A DNA stretch of 64,000 nucleotides, taken from Psychroflexus torquis ATCC 700755. Lineage in GTDB: Bacteria; Bacteroidota; Bacteroidia; Flavobacteriales; Flavobacteriaceae. The stretch is taken from positions 3,348,001 through 3,412,000 of the forward strand of contig NC_018721.1 of NCBI RefSeq assembly GCF_000153485.2, written 5' to 3'. Under the pieces are notes generated by a model that saw nothing but the letters and a program-made list of their open reading frames with translations, searched no databases and was not told the DNA's origin. Of this stretch, positions 51,192 through 64,000 are shown in pieces (position 1 is the stretch's first letter; each line of letters opens with the position of its first letter). The translations under genes and the position numbers were made by a program.

Positions 51192-52664
51192 TTAAGGAAC
51201 GTAGAAATAAATATTATCTAATATAAAGTCGGGACCACCAACCAAAATAATACCAGCCAAATTATCTTTTTGGTTCGAAATATTCCCAGCCAGAGGGATT
51301 TCTATAGAATTCCACTCACCAGGATTAAGGTTGCTAATTGTTCGTCTAAAATCACGGTCATCGTTAATCGGAAATCCATTATTATTTGAATCAATAATTC
51401 GATCTTCGCCTGCATCCCTTATTTGAAATTCAATTGATCCATTTTCATCTTCTATAAAAATATCAACATGCATAAAAGAAAGATTACTAGCATCTACAAT
51501 ACCATCAAATAGTATCCCGGTGAAATTATTTGTTGAATAAACCAGTGTTTGATCATTAAAGGGTTCACTAACTGTATTATTTAATCTTTCAAATAAACTT
51601 ACTTGAGTGGTAGAACCACCAAAACCAGGGTCAAAATTTATTTGAACAACGTCTTGATAACTATCACTAAACACGGATTTTACATTTTCTGGTAGAAGTG
51701 ATGGAATAGGAGCGAAGGGTAGCGGCCCTAAGGAGGTGATTTCATAAGATCCTTGAACATTTGCATTACTTATAGTTGCACTGATTAAAGTTGTTCCTGA
51801 ATCCCCAATAATATTTATCACGGGTTCACCTGTAAAATCGATTTCTGCTACATTTGGATCTGAATTTTGAAAATCAAAGTATAAAGGACTAGTTGCAACT
51901 TGTACATTTTCTCCTGTTTCAAGGTTAAACGTTGTTGAAATTCCAAACAAATTTAGTCTTGAATCTTGAAAACTTGTAGTAGACAAATCTTGCCCATTAA
52001 ATAGTAAAGCTTCTGTTAGCAATAGTGTTCCTAATTTCTCAAATTTTATTTCATCCAACCAAAATGTCCAACCAATTTCGTTACCATTTGGTTCGTCATC
52101 AACTATATCTAAACCACCTGCTGCGAACAAAAACATACCTCTCTCTTGAGTTAATTTTGAAGAATTAGGAATAGGTATTGTATATTTTTTCCAGTCTGTT
52201 GTTAGCTGTATAGCAGTTCGACTTGCAGGATATTTATCTTCTAGAAAATCCGTTCCAAATCCAACTTGACTTAGGATCCCTGTTGCAGACCCTTTAGCCC
52301 AAAAAGTTAAGGCATCATAGCCTGTTAAATTTCTACCCTCACCTCGATCTCTAAAGATACCCCCAACAAAATTTCCGTTGGGATCATCTGGTGAAGGAAC
52401 ATCAATTCTAATTGAAGAGGATCCTAAATAAGCTTCATTATTGTCTGTACCAAAGGCCTCTGTATTTGCGCCTTCTACCGGATCAAAGGATATAAAAAAC
52501 TCATCTGTAAGTCCTACTGGATTATCTGTAAACACGTCTGCTGTTGTAGGGAAAGTTGCAAGTATAGCATCATCAGATACTTCTCTTTCACAACTTGTTG
52601 TTACTACCATAGATAGTAAAACAAGTCCTATTAATTGTAGATATTTTAATTTGTTATGTATCAT
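51192..52664 (-). CDS. Surface glycan-binding lipoprotein
   Basis: 490 residues: lipoprotein signal (TTSCEREVSD), then a first CBM-like jelly-roll (~50-215; GGIFRDRGEGRNLTGYDALT, WTFWLDEIKFEKL), a BIG2-like middle domain (~215-310; DPNVAEIDFTGEPVINIIGD) and a second CBM-like jelly-roll (~315-490; MHVDIFIEDENGSIEFQIRD, LNPGEWNSIEIPLAG, FILDNIYFYVP). The build matches SGBPs that gather glycans for a TonB receptor in the absence of SusD. It lies 8 bp after the glycosidase-barrel gene and 19 bp before GH16. Confidence 0.8.
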   Translation of the reverse strand: MIHNKLKYLQLIGLVLLSMVVTTSCEREVSDDAILATFPTTADVFTDNPVGLTDEFFISFDPVEGANTEAFGTDNNEAYLGSSSIRIDVPSPDDPNGNFVGGIFRDRGEGRNLTGYDALTFWAKGSATGILSQVGFGTDFLEDKYPASRTAIQLTTDWKKYTIPIPNSSKLTQERGMFLFAAGGLDIVDDEPNGNEIGWTFWLDEIKFEKLGTLLLTEALLFNGQDLSTTSFQDSRLNLFGISTTFNLETGENVQVATSPLYFDFQNSDPNVAEIDFTGEPVINIIGDSGTTLISATISNANVQGSYEITSLGPLPFAPIPSLLPENVKSVFSDSYQDVVQINFDPGFGGSTTQVSLFERLNNTVSEPFNDQTLVYSTNNFTGILFDGIVDASNLSFMHVDIFIEDENGSIEFQIRDAGEDRIIDSNNNGFPINDDRDFRRTISNLNPGEWNSIEIPLAGNISNQKDNLAGIILVGGPDFILDNIYFYVP

Positions 52665-56971: not shown

Positions 56972-59900
56972 TTAGAAACTAATATTCAATTGAGAAAAGA
57001 TTCGAGTCCCGTCAATACCAAACTGTGTGGTTTGCCACGGGTACTTAAATCTTCCTACGAAATCTAAATTTCTATCTTGAGGTGTTCCACCAGTTGACGC
57101 ATAAGCTTCCGCAAAAGTATCAGGGAAAACATCAAATAAATTATTCACGCCCAGAGTAAAGTTAATATTATCTGTAAACGCATAGTTAACGCTCAAATCC
57201 GTTAAGGTTTTACCTCCATAGGTAGCATCGTTTATAGGATCATTTGGGTGTCTGTAAGTTACAGAACCATAATACATCAAAGATAAATTTGCGGTAATCT
57301 TATCGATTTCATAACTGGCCGTAGCGACAACTTTTTCTTGAGGTCTCCAGCTTTCAACTCTGGATATATCTTCTCTTGAAAATATAGCATCTCCTAAATT
57401 ATTGTCTTCAATAAATGCAGGAAAATTAGTTCCTTGCACTTCTGTTTCATTGAAGTTAGCAGCGATACTACCACTTAAGAAACCTCTCCCCAATTCTATA
57501 TTACTGTAGCTATATACAATATCAATCCCTTTGGTCCTTGTATCTATAGCATTCAAGAAAAAACCAGCAGAACCCACTCCAACATTCTCTAGAGTCCGGT
57601 CTATGGGGCTATTTGGATCTCCTGTGGCTGTAACTTGCCCAGAGAGTGCAATTCTATCATCCACATCAATTTGGTAAGCATCTATGGTGATCCCAGAATT
57701 TCTATTGAATCTATACGTAAAACCTCCACTTAAGTTAAAAGACGTTTCAGCGTCTAGCTCAGGAATTCCAAGTGCTCTTAAAGCTGGGTTGGCATTGTTC
57801 AAAATTCCATTTTGCTGAACCCCATCGGTTGTTAAAGTCGTTGTTGTAGCAGTATAGTAGACTTGGTGTAGAGATGGCGCTCTAAAACCACTACTTACAG
57901 AACCTCTTATAACCAATTTATCATCAGCAAGTTTATATCTGGAGCTCAACTTCCAACTTACATTAGAGCCAAAATCGCTATAATCTTCATAACGTAAAGC
58001 ACCACTCACTAAAAATGATTCTGTAAAATCTGCTGTGATGTCTGTGTAAAAACCAATATTAGATCTGTAATCGTTTGATGCATTTTCTGGGCTAAAACCT
58101 CCAAAAGATTCTGAACCTGTTCTACCTCCTTGTGCATCGGGAGACCCTCCGTCGCCGTAAGAAGCAAATTCACCCTCTTCGGTTACAAAGTTTTCTGTTC
58201 TGTGTTCCAAACCAAAAGCTACTGATAAAGCTTCAAGTCCTGCATCGTAAAAGGTTCTGTTAATGTCCAAGTTATTTACAACATGGCTAAATTCATGGGC
58301 CCCATTATAAAAATCAGAAGGACTACTTCCAGCAAAAGACTGGTTAAACGAATCTTCGATATAATAATCAATTCTATTTTTACCTAAGATAGAACTTACG
58401 TCAAAATTCCACTCATTAAAGGTTGTTTTCAAACCAAGAGCAAAGGTGTGATCTCGAATTTGAGGGGCCATTTTAGCTAAAAAGAATTCTTGATCTGGAT
58501 AGATGGCCTCAAATCCAGGTACCCAATAGGGTACTCTTGCAAATTGGGGCGCAGAACCTTCTCTGTCCGTTAGTGTACCAAAAGAATAAATTTCTGTATT
58601 GGTCTCTTTATCTAAAGTAAAACCAAGGTTATAAGCAAAATTAGTAATAGTCATATTGGGTAAGCCCACTTGGAACCCAGCGCTTGGATTTCTTTCTAAG
58701 AAAGACGTCAAATCGCTTGTGTTAAAAGCTGAATCATCAGTCACACCCCAATAACCAGCTTCATCTTCAACACTTGTGATTGTTCCTGCTCGTTGTGTAG
58801 CCTTAGAGTCCATATGACTCAATGTGAAATTGGCGTACCCTTCAGGCCCAAGGTCTATACCGAACCCAGATTCCACTTGGTACTGTTCACCGTCGCCTCG
58901 AGTCGTAGAACTATACCCTGTATTTATAAAAGGGTCTACATCTTCCTTCATCACTAGATTAATGACACCAGCAATAGCGTCAGATCCATACTGTGCAGCT
59001 GCACCATCTCTCAAAACTTCTACACTTTCTAAAGCTGCAGAGGGAATAGCTTTCATATCTACTCCAACTTCACCTCGACCTGGAGTGACATAACTGTAAA
59101 CAAGTGCACTGGCATTTTTTCGTTTTCCATTAACCAATACTAAAGTTCTACTAGGAAAAAGACCTCTCAAACCTGCAGGGCTAAAGTGAGCAGCCGCATC
59201 AGATACTGGCTGTTCTGTTGCATTGTAGGAAGGGACGCGTAGCATCAATTGTTGATCTACTGTCGTTTTACCTGTTTTTTGTAGCTCTTTTATTTTAAAA
59301 TTATCTACAGCTACAGGAGAGTCAAAAGAGGTTCTTGGCTTACCTCGAGTACCTATAACAACCACGGCATCAAGTTGTCCAGCATCTGGCTTCAATTGAA
59401 CTGTCACTTTGGATTTTCCCTCTACATTTACCTCCTCCTCTTTAAAGCCTACATAAGAGATGACAAGGAATTTTGAACCTTCAGGAACCTGTACTGTAAA
59501 GTTTCCGTCAAAGTCTGTTTGTGCACCTACGCTGGTTCCTTTTACTATGACATTAGCTCCAGGTAGTGGGTTTCCTTCTGGTCCTACAACCATTCCAGTT
59601 ACTTCTCGGTCTTGGATAGCATCAGTAACAATTTTAGCATTTGTAATGCCAGCTGTGAGTACTACTTGATTTCCATTGAAAGTATAATCGAAGTTAACTT
59701 GCTTGCTAATTTGATCTAAAATATTTTCAAAAGCTTCGTTTTCGGTATTAATACTTACCTTTTTATTCTCATCAATTTCATTAATATCATAAAAGAAATT
59801 GAATTTTGATTTTGATTTAATGTCCTTTAAAACATCAAGAAGCGTTGCATCTTCGTAAGCAATAGATATGTTCTGTTGCAGTTTTGGGTTTGCAAAACTT

Positions 59901-60010
59901 GGGTTAACAACAAAGAACGATAAGAATACTATGAGCATCGCTTTTAGTGTTGTCATACGTAAAATTGAACATCTCCGATGTTCAAATCTTTTTGTGTAAA
60001 TTTTCATCAT
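56972..60010 (-). CDS. TonB-dependent receptor with STN signalling domain
   Basis: 1012 residues. Signal peptide ~residues 20-41 (AMLIVFLSFFVVNPSFAN), STN/secretin-TonB domain (~48-115; ISIAYEDATLLDVLKDIKSK), a carboxypeptidase-regulatory beta-sandwich (~135-205; GMVVGPEGNPLPGANVIVKG), plug domain (~225-355; RTLVLVNGKRKNASALVYSY, GAAAQYGSDAIAGVINLVMK) and 22-stranded barrel ending in QFGIDGTRIFSQLNISF. The STN domain is the part that contacts FecR-type anti-sigma factors, and a FecR gene lies 50 bp upstream. It imports laminarin fragments by inference from location. It lacks a SusD partner. Confidence 0.92.
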   Translation of the reverse strand: MMKIYTKRFEHRRCSILRMTTLKAMLIVFLSFFVVNPSFANPKLQQNISIAYEDATLLDVLKDIKSKSKFNFFYDINEIDENKKVSINTENEAFENILDQISKQVNFDYTFNGNQVVLTAGITNAKIVTDAIQDREVTGMVVGPEGNPLPGANVIVKGTSVGAQTDFDGNFTVQVPEGSKFLVISYVGFKEEEVNVEGKSKVTVQLKPDAGQLDAVVVIGTRGKPRTSFDSPVAVDNFKIKELQKTGKTTVDQQLMLRVPSYNATEQPVSDAAAHFSPAGLRGLFPSRTLVLVNGKRKNASALVYSYVTPGRGEVGVDMKAIPSAALESVEVLRDGAAAQYGSDAIAGVINLVMKEDVDPFINTGYSSTTRGDGEQYQVESGFGIDLGPEGYANFTLSHMDSKATQRAGTITSVEDEAGYWGVTDDSAFNTSDLTSFLERNPSAGFQVGLPNMTITNFAYNLGFTLDKETNTEIYSFGTLTDREGSAPQFARVPYWVPGFEAIYPDQEFFLAKMAPQIRDHTFALGLKTTFNEWNFDVSSILGKNRIDYYIEDSFNQSFAGSSPSDFYNGAHEFSHVVNNLDINRTFYDAGLEALSVAFGLEHRTENFVTEEGEFASYGDGGSPDAQGGRTGSESFGGFSPENASNDYRSNIGFYTDITADFTESFLVSGALRYEDYSDFGSNVSWKLSSRYKLADDKLVIRGSVSSGFRAPSLHQVYYTATTTTLTTDGVQQNGILNNANPALRALGIPELDAETSFNLSGGFTYRFNRNSGITIDAYQIDVDDRIALSGQVTATGDPNSPIDRTLENVGVGSAGFFLNAIDTRTKGIDIVYSYSNIELGRGFLSGSIAANFNETEVQGTNFPAFIEDNNLGDAIFSREDISRVESWRPQEKVVATASYEIDKITANLSLMYYGSVTYRHPNDPINDATYGGKTLTDLSVNYAFTDNINFTLGVNNLFDVFPDTFAEAYASTGGTPQDRNLDFVGRFKYPWQTTQFGIDGTRIFSQLNISF

Positions 60011-60059
60011 AAAGTGTTTTAAATTAATACTTGTGTTGAACTACTGTTTGTTGATCTGC

Positions 60060-61232
60060 TTAATCCTTTGGGTTTTTATTAAAAATTCGAATGTGTTTTC
60101 CATCTATAGAAAAGCTAAATTTTGAACTAAGAGCAATGGTTTTTAAGGTTTCGGCAAGAGATTCATCTTTAAACTCCCCTCTATAGGTTTTCTCCCATAA
60201 ATAATCCAATTCGTTGGTAATTGTAATATTGTATTTACGTTCTAGCTTTCTCTTAAGTTCAAGAAAAGAAAGACCGTCGACAACCAAAATGTTATCGATC
60301 CAACTGTTAAAAGCATCTGCGTCTACTGTCTTTTTTTCAAACTTCTGATTTGTTTTTTCGAACACTGCTTGTTGATTCGGTACTAATTCAACAGGAGTAT
60401 TTATTTGAAGGCTATTGTAAACTTGAACTTTGCCTTCCATAAGGGTTGTCTCTGATTTAGAATCATTGGCATAGGAAGAAATATTAAAATGAGTCCCCAA
60501 GACTTTCACACTTACGCTGGGCGTGTGGACTATAAACGGTTTTTGTTTGTTTTTGGAAATCTCAAAATAGGCCTCACCGACCACATTTACTTCTCTGGTT
60601 TTGGACTTAGAACTAAAGTGTTGTGGAAAGCTTAAGCTACTTCCAGAATTTAGCCAGACCAAGCTACCATCAGATAGTCTAAGCCTCAATTTTTCCCCAT
60701 ATGGTATGTCAATTTGGGTTGTTGAGGTATCTTTTGCAATAGAAGAGTAAGCTTCAAAAGACAATATATTATCTAATTGGCTTGCAACAAGTCTACCTGA
60801 TTTGTCCTTAAGGCTTATAGTAGATTTTTTGTTGATACGGTGTTGACTTCCATCTGATAAAGTAACTTGGATTTCCTTAAGACTTTCATTAGCCTCTCTT
60901 CTATCCGCTATATTGTCTTGTTCTGTAAATAATAATTCTGAATTTTGATAGAGAAGACCTAAACCTATTAAGGCTGTAAAACTTGCAGCCCAATAAAATA
61001 TTTTTAGTCTTTGTTTGCGCAAGCGTTTTTTCTCTTGAATTTTTTGGTAAAAACGATCAAAGGCTTTATCCGAATCGAAATTTAAGGGGATGACGTATGA
61101 ATGTGAACGGATACGTTCCTTAAAATAATTAAGATTCTTTAAGTCTTTTTTGACCCATTTATTCATTTGAACACTCTCTCTTTTAGAAAGACTGCCCTTT
61201 AAATAATTGTCAATAAGTTGGTCTGAATTCAT
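60060..61232 (-). CDS. FecR-family anti-sigma factor
   Basis: 390 residues. Cytosolic N-terminal anti-sigma region (~1-80; LIDNYLKGSLSKRESVQMNK), one membrane segment (~85-103; IFYWAASFTALIGLGLLYQ), a periplasmic FecR domain (~190-285; DIPYGEKLRLRLSDGSLVWL, NSGSSLSFPQHF, EVNVVGEAYFEISKN, VLGTHFNISSYAND) and a C-terminal STN-like domain (DNILVVDGLSFLELKRKLER) as in Bacteroidota FecR proteins. It should sense the adjacent TonB receptor and control the divergently encoded sigma factor. Confidence 0.92.
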   Translation of the reverse strand: MNSDQLIDNYLKGSLSKRESVQMNKWVKKDLKNLNYFKERIRSHSYVIPLNFDSDKAFDRFYQKIQEKKRLRKQRLKIFYWAASFTALIGLGLLYQNSELLFTEQDNIADRREANESLKEIQVTLSDGSQHRINKKSTISLKDKSGRLVASQLDNILSFEAYSSIAKDTSTTQIDIPYGEKLRLRLSDGSLVWLNSGSSLSFPQHFSSKSKTREVNVVGEAYFEISKNKQKPFIVHTPSVSVKVLGTHFNISSYANDSKSETTLMEGKVQVYNSLQINTPVELVPNQQAVFEKTNQKFEKKTVDADAFNSWIDNILVVDGLSFLELKRKLERKYNITITNELDYLWEKTYRGEFKDESLAETLKTIALSSKFSFSIDGKHIRIFNKNPKD

Positions 61233-61322
61233 TTATAATTTATGTGGATCACTTACTTATAAGATGCGGTTTTATTTAAAAACCCCTATTTAACTTAAGA
61301 TAAATTAAATATATTTCTTAAA

Positions 61323-61868
61323 TTGCTAAAAGTGATAGATCTTATTTTCATACAAAAACTTAAACAAGGCGATGAAATCGCCTACCAAATACTGTATGAT
61401 AAGTACTATCAATGGCTATGTAATTATGTCTTTAAGCTTTGTGAAAACAAAAAACTATCTGAAGACATTGTTCAAGATGTGTTAATGAAATTTTACGAGA
61501 ATCGTCTTAAAATTACAATTACAGGTTCACTTAAAAATTACTTATTTACGTCTTGTCACAATCAATTTTTACAGCATTTAAGAAAAAAGAAAATAAAGTT
61601 TGATGATTTAGATACTATTAAATGGGAGGTGATTGCAAGTACAATGAATACTCAGGAAAATCATAAGCAAACCAAACTCAAAAAATTACACCAGTATATA
61701 GATGAGTTGCCACCCAGATGTAAAGAGATTTTTGTCAAAAACAAACTAGAAAAAACCATCTATAAAGATATTGCTGAAGACATGGATATTTCTGTGAAGA
61801 CAGTGGAAAACCAGATGTCGAAAGCTCTCAAACACCTCAGAAAGCGAGCTAATCAGTTTATGTTATAA
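61323..61868 (+). CDS. ECF RNA polymerase sigma factor (FecI-like)
   Basis: 181 residues from a TTG at 61323; a GTG three codons on (61332) is an equally good start, and no ATG fits. Sigma region 2 (~10-80; GDEIAYQILYDKYYQWLCNY, LSEDIVQDVLMKFYE) and region 4 with helix-turn-helix (~120-178; LPPRCKEIFVKNKLEKTIYK, DISVKTVENQMSKALKHLR). Divergent from the FecR gene, the usual arrangement in Bacteroidota FecI/FecR pairs. Likely drives the receptor gene and possibly the PUL. Confidence 0.92.
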   Translation: MLKVIDLIFIQKLKQGDEIAYQILYDKYYQWLCNYVFKLCENKKLSEDIVQDVLMKFYENRLKITITGSLKNYLFTSCHNQFLQHLRKKKIKFDDLDTIKWEVIASTMNTQENHKQTKLKKLHQYIDELPPRCKEIFVKNKLEKTIYKDIAEDMDISVKTVENQMSKALKHLRKRANQFML

Positions 61869-61984
61869 ATTTTAAAAATCTTTAATTTCCTCTATGCTAT
61901 GATCGAAACCCTAGCGATATAAAGTAATTTCGATTGATTTTTGACTTTTGCCTTGGACTAATCGACTTTAACCACTTTTAATGC
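61869..61984. other. Intergenic between sigma factor and IS1595 remnant
   Basis: About 115 bp of AT-rich DNA after the sigma stop; no hairpin recognised. Confidence 0.3.
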
Positions 61985-62310
61985 AGTTATGTAAACCATA
62001 TGAGTAGAGAAGCAAATGTCACCACCGATAAATGGAGAGGGTATAGACCAATTGCAAAGGTTTATGATAGAACAGAGATTGACAGCAATCGAGAATTGAA
62101 TTTTAAGGCGTTACATACAAGGATACATCAGGTTAAATATTGGATAAGAATGGCATACTCCTGGTTTGTGGTGTCAGTTTAAATAGATATTTTAATGAAT
62201 TTTGTTTTAGGATAAATAGGTGGCACAATAAAGCAACTATATTCAATAATCTAATTGTCAAAATGGTGGAGGGAGACAAAATATATCAATCAGAATTAAT
62301 GTGTAACTAA
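61985..62310 (+). pseudogene. C-terminal fragment of an IS1595-family transposase
   Basis: The frame VTTDKWRGYRPIAKVYDRTE, ELNFKALHTRIHQVKYWIR is the C-terminal third of an IS1595-type transposase. After a frameshift at about 62165 it continues SLNRYFNEFCFRINRWHNKA, TIFNNLIVKMVEGDKIYQ to a TAA at 62308. The N-terminal two thirds are missing. It matches the C-terminal block of the remnant at 1505-2335 closely, so both derive from one element family. Confidence 0.72.
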
Positions 62311-62439
62311 TTACTGACCTCTTCATATATAAATCAATTCACTACTTTTATTCTTGTTATCAATTAATAAAGGGTTTAGGTACACGAACCTTATACTTTA
62401 GTATATGTCGGGATTTTCTATAATGCTTTTGAAAGTTTA
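62311..62439. other. Intergenic downstream of PET-hydrolase-like gene
   Basis: Short non-coding stretch between the transposase relic and the convergent hydrolase gene; no clear terminator. Confidence 0.3.
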
Positions 62440-63537
62440 TTAATTGTATTTAATAAGTTTTATAATTTGACCTTCTATGTTCAAGTAATACAAGCTTTCT
62501 GGAAATTGAGACAAATCAATCTGCTTGTTATTTCCAGTTAGATTTCCTTCCAATATAGGTTGTCCTAGGGGTGAAATGAGTTCATAATTAACGTCTTTAA
62601 GAATTTCTAAATAGACTATGTTTCTGGTTGGGTTGGGATAAAATCCAATAGCTAATTCCTGATTATCAATCCCTAATAATCCACATTCGAAACTTTGCTC
62701 CACCTTAGAGGCAGCAGGAGGGTTTACTAAAAGATTGTCTGTTAACAATGGACAATAACAATCATTATCTTCCACATAGAGTTTAAGCCAAGAAAGGGCT
62801 ATTCTACCTACAGAGCCGCCTCCGCCATTAGGTGTATTAGCAACTGAGTGATCGCCATTTGCAATTTCGAAAAGCACTTTGTCAGTCATACTCGGTGTTG
62901 CATTGTAATGAAGATCTGCGTGCTGTGAAGGGGGAGCTACGGTATCATCCTCACCACTAAAAATAAGAACTGGACTTTCATGATCAAGTTGAGAGTTAGG
63001 AAGCCATGGACATAAGGCCACAACACCTGCAATGCTATTATCAAGAACGGCAGCCCTTTGAGCACCACCACCGCCCATAGACCATCCACTTACGGCCAAT
63101 TGGTCTAAGTTGAGGGCTCCTTCAAGCGGAGAAGAAGCTCTACTATTTTCTTGTTTGATGGTTTCCAAAGCATCTAGCAGTGCATTAGCCCGTGCCTCTG
63201 GGGAATCCCAAAGATTATTTGTCCCTATAATAATGGTCACGATACCGTGAGACGCATAAAATGGTCCCCATTCTTCAACACTTGAAGGAAACGAATAAAA
63301 TCCTGGGACTATTGCAATACTTGCGAAGGGCCGTTTAGCATTGGTTGGGTAGTAAATGGTCGCTCCAGAATAATCAGGCCCATTTCGAATTCCATCTGCC
63401 TCGGTAAGGGTTTCTACATCATATGGCCCTGGGTTTGTAAGATTCACTAAATTTACATCATCACACTGGGCAAGAGCGCTATTGGTAAATAGGGGGGAGA
63501 TAAAAAGGAGTAAGAGGACGAAGTATATGTTTTTCAT
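62440..63537 (-). CDS. T9SS-secreted cutinase/PET-hydrolase-like polyesterase
   Basis: 365 residues: signal peptide (~1-23, FTNSALAQC), alpha/beta-hydrolase domain (~40-262) and T9SS sorting domain (~293-365; LAIGFYPNPTRNIVYLEI). The hydrolase closely follows IsPETase-type enzymes: IVPGFYSFPSSVEEWGPFYA and SHGIVTIIIGTN, nucleophile Ser153 in the exact GWSMGGGG motif, Trp178 in ALCPWLP, Asp198 in SGEDDTVAP and His230 in NGDHSVAN. The aromatic clamp Tyr is Phe80. The two cysteines near the active-site loops of IsPETase (C203/C239) are absent (SGEDD, HSVAN). Bacteroidota PET hydrolases with a Por tail are known; this belongs to that group. Native substrate, whether cutin-like or another polyester, is unknown. 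Confidence 0.82.
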   Translation of the reverse strand: MKNIYFVLLLLFISPLFTNSALAQCDDVNLVNLTNPGPYDVETLTEADGIRNGPDYSGATIYYPTNAKRPFASIAIVPGFYSFPSSVEEWGPFYASHGIVTIIIGTNNLWDSPEARANALLDALETIKQENSRASSPLEGALNLDQLAVSGWSMGGGGAQRAAVLDNSIAGVVALCPWLPNSQLDHESPVLIFSGEDDTVAPPSQHADLHYNATPSMTDKVLFEIANGDHSVANTPNGGGGSVGRIALSWLKLYVEDNDCYCPLLTDNLLVNPPAASKVEQSFECGLLGIDNQELAIGFYPNPTRNIVYLEILKDVNYELISPLGQPILEGNLTGNNKQIDLSQFPESLYYLNIEGQIIKLIKYN

Positions 63538-63662
63538 GAGTTCTTTAAACTATTAGATGAGGTATAGATTCATTTATATTTTTGAAAGCAGTAAGGTAAG
63601 ACTATAATTTAGTCGGCTTTAAAAAAAATATGATATGCATTTTGTCACTACGTTGAATATAA

Positions 63663-64000
63663 TCATCTTATTATCAGTTTTTTAAAAATTGTAATATTTT
63701 GAGAGTTGTTTTTTATTTTGAGCAAATAGGTACCAGAATTGAATTTAGGAAGCAATACTCTTATTTTAGAGTGACTTGCTGTTACTTGTTTTTCATATAA
63801 ATTTTGCCCCAAAATAGTATAAAAACTCAAATTATAATCTCCATCAATTAGATTTAATATTTCTAAGGGACTTCCCGTTGTTGATGGATTAGGATAAATC
63901 ATTACGTTTTCATTAGTGTTTTCAAAATTGTTAATGTTTAAGAGGGGACTCGTTAAAGCTTGAAAAGCATTAATTCTACCATGTCCATAATATTGATCCC
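63663..64000 (-). CDS. Subtilisin-like serine protease with T9SS tail (5' part outside window)
   Basis: Only the last ~112 codons are inside the window, running in frame off the right edge. The first visible residues, QYYGHGRINAFQAL, match the end of S8 subtilase catalytic domains (GxGRxNAxxAL). They are followed by a linker and a T9SS type A sorting domain (ENVMIYPNPSTTGSPLEI, YTILGQNLYEKQ, FNSGTYLLKIKN). The catalytic triad lies outside the window, so activity cannot be judged. An internal ATG at 63902 is not the start. Confidence 0.75.
   Translation of the reverse strand, partial: DQYYGHGRINAFQALTSPLLNINNFENTNENVMIYPNPSTTGSPLEILNLIDGDYNLSFYTILGQNLYEKQVTASHSKIRVLLPKFNSGTYLLKIKNNSQNITIFKKLIIR

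Follow-up and report, generated by a model that had tools for sequence, protein, structure and literature searches.

The closest described relatives of the enzyme considered here are PET27 and PET30, members of a group of Bacteroidota polyesterases in which some enzymes attack polyester plastics weakly. As far as PMC8767016 treats their activities, PET27 to PET30 act on polycaprolactone (PCL), bis(hydroxyethyl) terephthalate (BHET) and Impranil (clearing), and PET27 and PET30 act on foil of polyethylene terephthalate (PET). The motif around the substrate is given there as Phe-Met-Trp for PET27 and Phe-Met-Tyr for PET30; in PET30, G195 and V232 replace the active-site disulfide, and the single disulfide is C262-C285 (PMC8767016). 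The gene discussed below comes from Psychroflexus torquis ATCC 700755 and lies on the minus strand at 62440..63537 of a stretch of 64,000 nucleotides (the window). It very probably encodes a secreted member of this same PET27/PET30 group.

The window gene is an open reading frame (ORF) with an ATG start that encodes 365 amino acids. Its best sequence match in the Protein Data Bank (PDB) is 7PZJ, the PET30 of Kaistella jeonii, with E 2e-148 over residues 1-363 (best of 179 matches), and the second match is 8OTU, with E 4.4e-51. Residues 36-267 (62737..63432, minus strand like all features of the gene) form a PET-hydrolase catalytic domain that matches PF12740 with 182.9 bits (Pfam cut-off 28). 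The C-terminal residues 300-362 (62452..62640) form a Por secretion sorting domain of the type IX secretion system (T9SS) type A, with 28.3 bits to PF18962 over residues 300-357 (Pfam cut-off 27) and 24.6 bits to TIGR04183 over residues 300-362 (NCBIfam cut-off 23). Judged by these scores, neither the PETase nor the Por-tail match is due to chance. Residues 1-23 (63469..63537) appear by eye to be a signal peptide cut at ALA/Q, and cleavage at 23-24 is also published for the signal peptides of PET27 to PET30 (PMC8767016, Table 3).

A first-pass annotation, made from the sequence, had described the product as a polyesterase resembling PET hydrolases, with a T9SS tail and IsPETase landmarks in their usual order. 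The two Pfam matches and the 7PZJ alignment agree with this description, and the landmarks are all present in order: PGF (F80), WGP..ASHG (90-98), GWSMGGGG (S153), PW (W178), GEDDTVAP (D198), GDHS (H230) and a YPNPT-type tail. By alignment, the catalytic nucleophile is S153 (63079..63081) within GWSMGGGG, the catalytic acid D198 (62944..62946; D206 in IsPETase) and the catalytic base H230 (62848..62850; H237), which is followed by S231 (S238). The aromatic clamp residue is F80 (63298..63300), equivalent to Y87 of IsPETase and also Phe in PET27 and PET30; M154 aligns with M161, and the second clamp residue, W178 (63004..63006), aligns with W185 and is Trp in PET27 and Tyr in PET30. G195 and V232 stand at the positions of C203 and C239, so that the annotation was also right about the Phe clamp and the absent active-site disulfide. 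A disulfide is instead predicted between C262 (62752..62754) and C285 (62683..62685), as in the PET30 crystal structure (PMC8767016).

One source names several close relatives "dienelactone hydrolase", which could mean that a dienelactone hydrolase (DLH) or an acetyl (xylan) esterase has been misnamed after the PETases. We regard this as highly improbable. PF01738 (DLH) scores 14.5 bits (Pfam cut-off 21) and AXE1 13.3 bits, likewise under its Pfam cut-off, versus the 182.9 bits of the PETase family, and the nucleophile is the Ser of GWSMGGGG. In a tree built by maximum likelihood (LG+R4, ultrafast bootstrap) from 65 sequences and 235 columns, all PETases split from a set of 13 that are either DLHs or weak scorers against PF12740 (support 100). 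The window protein lies 0.35 substitutions per site from the Aequorivita enzyme, versus 3.7-4.2 from L073 and from L056-L065. L073 is the strongest DLH of the same genome, translated from an internal Met that leaves 182 of its 232 amino acids, and L056-L065 are enzymes of about the size of PET93/PET94. The DLH reading is thus rejected on Pfam scores and tree, and the acetyl xylan esterase by Pfam scores, the comparison used for acetylhydrolases, which were not included in the tree. The NCBIfam equivalog for BHET hydrolases, NF051441, gives 138.4 bits, far under its cut-off of 520.

Within the PETases, the six references form one group (support 95) and the Bacteroidota enzymes a second one of 46 sequences (support 93) with a nested clade of 43 (support 98). 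The window protein pairs with the Psychroflexus gondwanensis enzyme and then with that of Brumimicrobium glaciale (support 96). The smallest clade that holds the window, Aequorivita and K. jeonii enzymes comprises 35 sequences with support 89, and several nodes along the path to it are weak (39-77). The placement in the Bacteroidota PETase clade means that the kinship is with PET27/PET30 rather than with the DLHs included, as the first-pass annotation had proposed. PET27 is represented throughout by the gene of Aequorivita sp. CIP111184, which we take to be its source strain, PMC8767016 naming the source as Aequorivita sp. The 364-amino-acid length fits Table 3 of PMC8767016, but other Aequorivita loci share it. 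The catalytic domain of the window protein is 78.7% identical to that of this Aequorivita enzyme and 72.8% identical to that of K. jeonii; for IsPETase, LCC, 7CWQ, Ple628, Ple629 and 8OTU the figure is 35.2-40.4%. Relatives are encoded at 41 loci of the genome collection, among them those of P. gondwanensis (90% full-length identity), Ulvibacter antarcticus (80%), B. glaciale (74%), Aequorivita sp. CIP111184 (67%) and K. jeonii (60%).

The Phe clamp and the missing disulfide had led the annotation to call the protein a divergent member, and this part does not stand. Both traits are published for PET27 and PET30 (PMC8767016), and both are the norm in a residue survey of the best 120 of 1287 relatives found: the two active-site cysteines are missing in all 120, and the clamp residue is Phe in 96. 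The Ser-Asp-His triad is likewise present in 120/120, and C260, C262 and C285 occur together in 118/120. Since F80-M154-W178, G195/V232 and C262/C285 match the published traits of PET27 and PET30, the window protein is typical of enzymes with the PET27 motif. The annotation had also placed it among "few" Bacteroidota enzymes of this kind. This is correct with respect to genomes, which carry such genes sparsely, but not with respect to sequences, as there are at least 120 distinct relatives of at least 67% identity, every one with a Por-tail domain. In a family sample of 299 genomes, PF12740 is matched at E 1e-10 or below in 23 and strongly (E 1e-45 or below) in 12 of these, own genome included. 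The genome itself, a single contig of 4,321,832 bases, has one PF12740 match with an E value of at most 0.001, and 2/27 genomes of the genus hold a relative. A protein search of the phylum sample found at least one in 395 genomes, the own genome being the one found; up to five candidates per genome were scored in the matches listed, and the count may be a lower bound.

The B. glaciale enzyme (L007 8001-9089) clusters with the Psychroflexus pair (support 96) even though its host belongs to another family, the Crocinitomicaceae. Together with the presence of the gene in only 2 of the 27 genus genomes, this suggests horizontal transfer of the esterase gene. Full-length identity, however, is higher to U. 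antarcticus (80%) than to B. glaciale (74%).

The enzyme most likely works as follows. The signal peptide would direct Sec export across the inner membrane, and the Por tail would then hand the protein to the type IX system, which would place it on the cell surface or in the medium. There, the Ser153-His230-Asp198 triad would cut ester bonds in an open cleft, and Phe80 and Trp178 would lie on either side of the substrate. The type IX core gene sprA is present in the genome (SprA_N, 418.2 bits), the machinery being judged from this gene alone, and there are 67 Por-tail matches, 66 of them over the cut-off. By homology, short- to medium-chain esters, PCL and BHET would be cut, and amorphous PET slowly. 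The window protein is thus most likely a promiscuous secreted esterase that probably acts on PCL and BHET and would attack PET slowly; PET is not its natural substrate. The natural substrates could instead be algal or animal lipids, on which a lipase or triglyceride esterase would feed while its polyester cutting was a side activity with no natural role. This view differs from the polyesterase assignment only in the natural substrate, and we consider it a possibility of some weight, if short of probable. It draws on the preference of PET27 and PET30 for pNP-C8 and pNP-C6 (p-nitrophenyl esters), labelled promiscuous short-chain esterases by their authors (PMC8767016), and on the lack of a Ring_hydroxyl_A dioxygenase match in the genome, which makes use of terephthalate by the known route improbable. 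The clearing of PCL and Impranil by close relatives is, however, an action on polymers (PMC8767016).

Several points weigh against a polyesterase assignment. Of nine candidate genes cloned, only PET27 and PET30 are reported with confirmed activity on PET foil (PMC8767016). PET53 shares the F-M-W motif and lacks a Por tail; it showed no activity and was either insoluble or made in small amounts (PMC8767016), so that the motif is no guarantee of activity, and the activity proposed for the window protein is carried over from its homologues. The Por tail barely clears its cut-offs (28.3 vs 27; 24.6 vs 23). Finally, an AlphaFold2 model built with 23 close sequences is of low confidence (mean predicted local distance difference test score, pLDDT, 50.6; predicted template modelling score, pTM, 0.43), presumably because the alignment is shallow, and supports nothing; the crystal structure of the homologue 7PZJ was used in its place.

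The PET27-type clamp residues might also be taken to indicate a dedicated PET-degrading enzyme that lets its host live on plastic. This is scarcely credible. The Ring_hydroxyl_A dioxygenase, present in 4 of 14 control genomes, gave no match in the genome of P. torquis, which therefore probably does not use terephthalate via the known dioxygenase route, and no protein among the six neighbours scanned resembles the product of a terephthalate gene. A search for the tannase family (MHETase) found no match in this genome and none in the 14 controls either, so that it carries no weight here.

Directly upstream of the esterase gene, on the same strand, lies a subtilase gene (Peptidase_S8, 546 amino acids) with a Por tail of its own, which occupies 63663-64000 and runs past the window (L068 3664-5304). 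Beyond it come genes for a small hydrolase-like protein, whose DLH match stays below threshold, and for a Band 7 protein. On the downstream side, at 56972-61868, lie those for an extracytoplasmic function (ECF) sigma factor (on the plus strand), for FecR and for a TonB-dependent receptor; the ORFs listed from 58000 to 64000 include no SusD-like gene. In a comparison of 13 flanking ORFs of at least 120 amino acids (those of the window from position 52000 to its end, and those of L068 on the right) with the 41 related loci at E 1e-10, four matched the P. gondwanensis locus L003 (sigma factor, FecR, TonB receptor and Band 7), two matched L025 and one L042, and none had a match in the other 38. 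At L003, two other ORFs separate the esterase from the sigma factor gene. At none of the 41 loci, P. gondwanensis included, did the subtilase find a match. No conserved gene arrangement was seen beyond P. gondwanensis among the 41 loci, a limited test since at 14 of them one or both sides extend for less than 8 kb. The flanking ORFs give no sign of an operon or a polymer-utilisation locus, and the esterase gene stands alone.

The clamp survey around the gene is slightly more useful than the gene itself. Among the best 120 relatives, the motif is F-M-Y in 51, F-M-W in 38, Y-M-W in 21 and F-M-F in 7, with W-M-W, Y-M-Y and Y-M-H once each; among 47 locus sequences, F-M-W occurs 25 times, F-M-Y 14 times and another reading 8 times (one being a gap in a partial gene). 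The abstract on PET30 states that F-M-Y "seems to be a unique feature" (PMC8767016). With 51 carriers among the best 120 relatives, it is common rather than unique. The 21 Y-M-W carriers, among them P0007, P0011, P0013, P0014, P0018 and P0020, combine the natural clamp of IsPETase and LCC with a PET27 scaffold that lacks the active-site disulfide, and L004 is the only such carrier among the locus sequences. Because F-M-Y and Y-M-W are this frequent, natural clamp variants could be compared without engineering. It is conceivable, though rather unlikely, that the group consists of cold-water cell-surface enzymes for a natural polyester, passed among polar-water Flavobacteriales with a clamp varying between F-M-Y, F-M-W, Y-M-W and F-M-F. 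If so, the Y-M-W members would provide a test, supplied by nature, of which features define a PETase.

Other arrangements also occur. In genome G138, two strong PF12740 genes, L045 and L066, stand in tandem. Over the aligned parts, their identity to the window protein is 46-50%; their motif positions read W-M-W and F-L-F, and each has a PNP-type tail by eye. A third, weaker match on another contig of G138, L067, resembles L055: both score about 60 bits to PF12740 and have a GHSMGGG elbow, in frames of 386 (L055) and 463 (L067) amino acids. The Por tail of L055 is over the cut-off, and L067 has a PNP-type tail by eye. These two may belong to a distinct group of alpha/beta hydrolases with tails.

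The significance of the window gene is small, as it adds one more PET27-motif enzyme, from what is probably a sea-ice organism, to a group that already has a crystal structure and activity data. Judged from titles and the beginnings of abstracts, the literature on Psychroflexus and PETase, or on Psychroflexus torquis and esterase, contains nothing about this gene. The relevant portions of PMC13396203, on type III PETases, and PMC13422221, on Antarctic soil candidates, add no information on the PET27/PET30 group. The other accounts of this group are not uniform. A review describes PET27 and PET30 as lacking the extra disulfide but having the type II loop and the Trp/Ser pair (PMC11219463); it departs from PMC8767016 in giving Tyr-Met-Trp for PET27 and in describing PET30 as devoid of a Por domain, and PMC13188925 departs from it in giving Phe-Met-Trp for PET30. 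The Aequorivita CIP111184 gene reads F-M-W and the K. jeonii gene F-M-Y, both with a PNP-type tail, in agreement with PMC8767016.

Among the known enzymes, PET93 and PET94 of Maribacter and Arenibacter are likewise flavobacterial alpha/beta hydrolases that are secreted and for which activity on PET is published, but they are longer (433-434 amino acids), have no Por tail and form a subcluster of their own (PMC13188925). With the type IIb enzyme IsPETase, the window protein shares the triad, the GWSMGGGG motif, the Trp preceding the catalytic Ser, the Ser following the catalytic His and an extended loop after this His, which counts 21 positions in both and 18 in LCC. It differs from IsPETase in overall sequence (35.2% identity), in Phe for Tyr87, in His206/His210 for Ser214/Ile218, in the Por tail and in the lack of the C203-C239 disulfide, the extra disulfide beside the active site that is a trait of type II PET hydrolases, with G195 and V232 at both Cys positions. 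PET30 (7PZJ) has the domain order, Phe80, G195/V232 and C262/C285 in common with it, but Tyr178 in place of Trp178. The likeness to PET27 also extends to the F-M-W motif, in addition to the order of signal peptide, PETase domain and Por tail, G195/V232, C262/C285 and the loop after the catalytic His, which again has 21 positions in the Aequorivita enzyme. About 21% of the catalytic-domain residues differ between the two, and V200, which is Thr in the Aequorivita enzyme, is the sole mismatch among 19 positions compared. Nothing that we found sets the window protein apart from the PET27/PET30 group as described.
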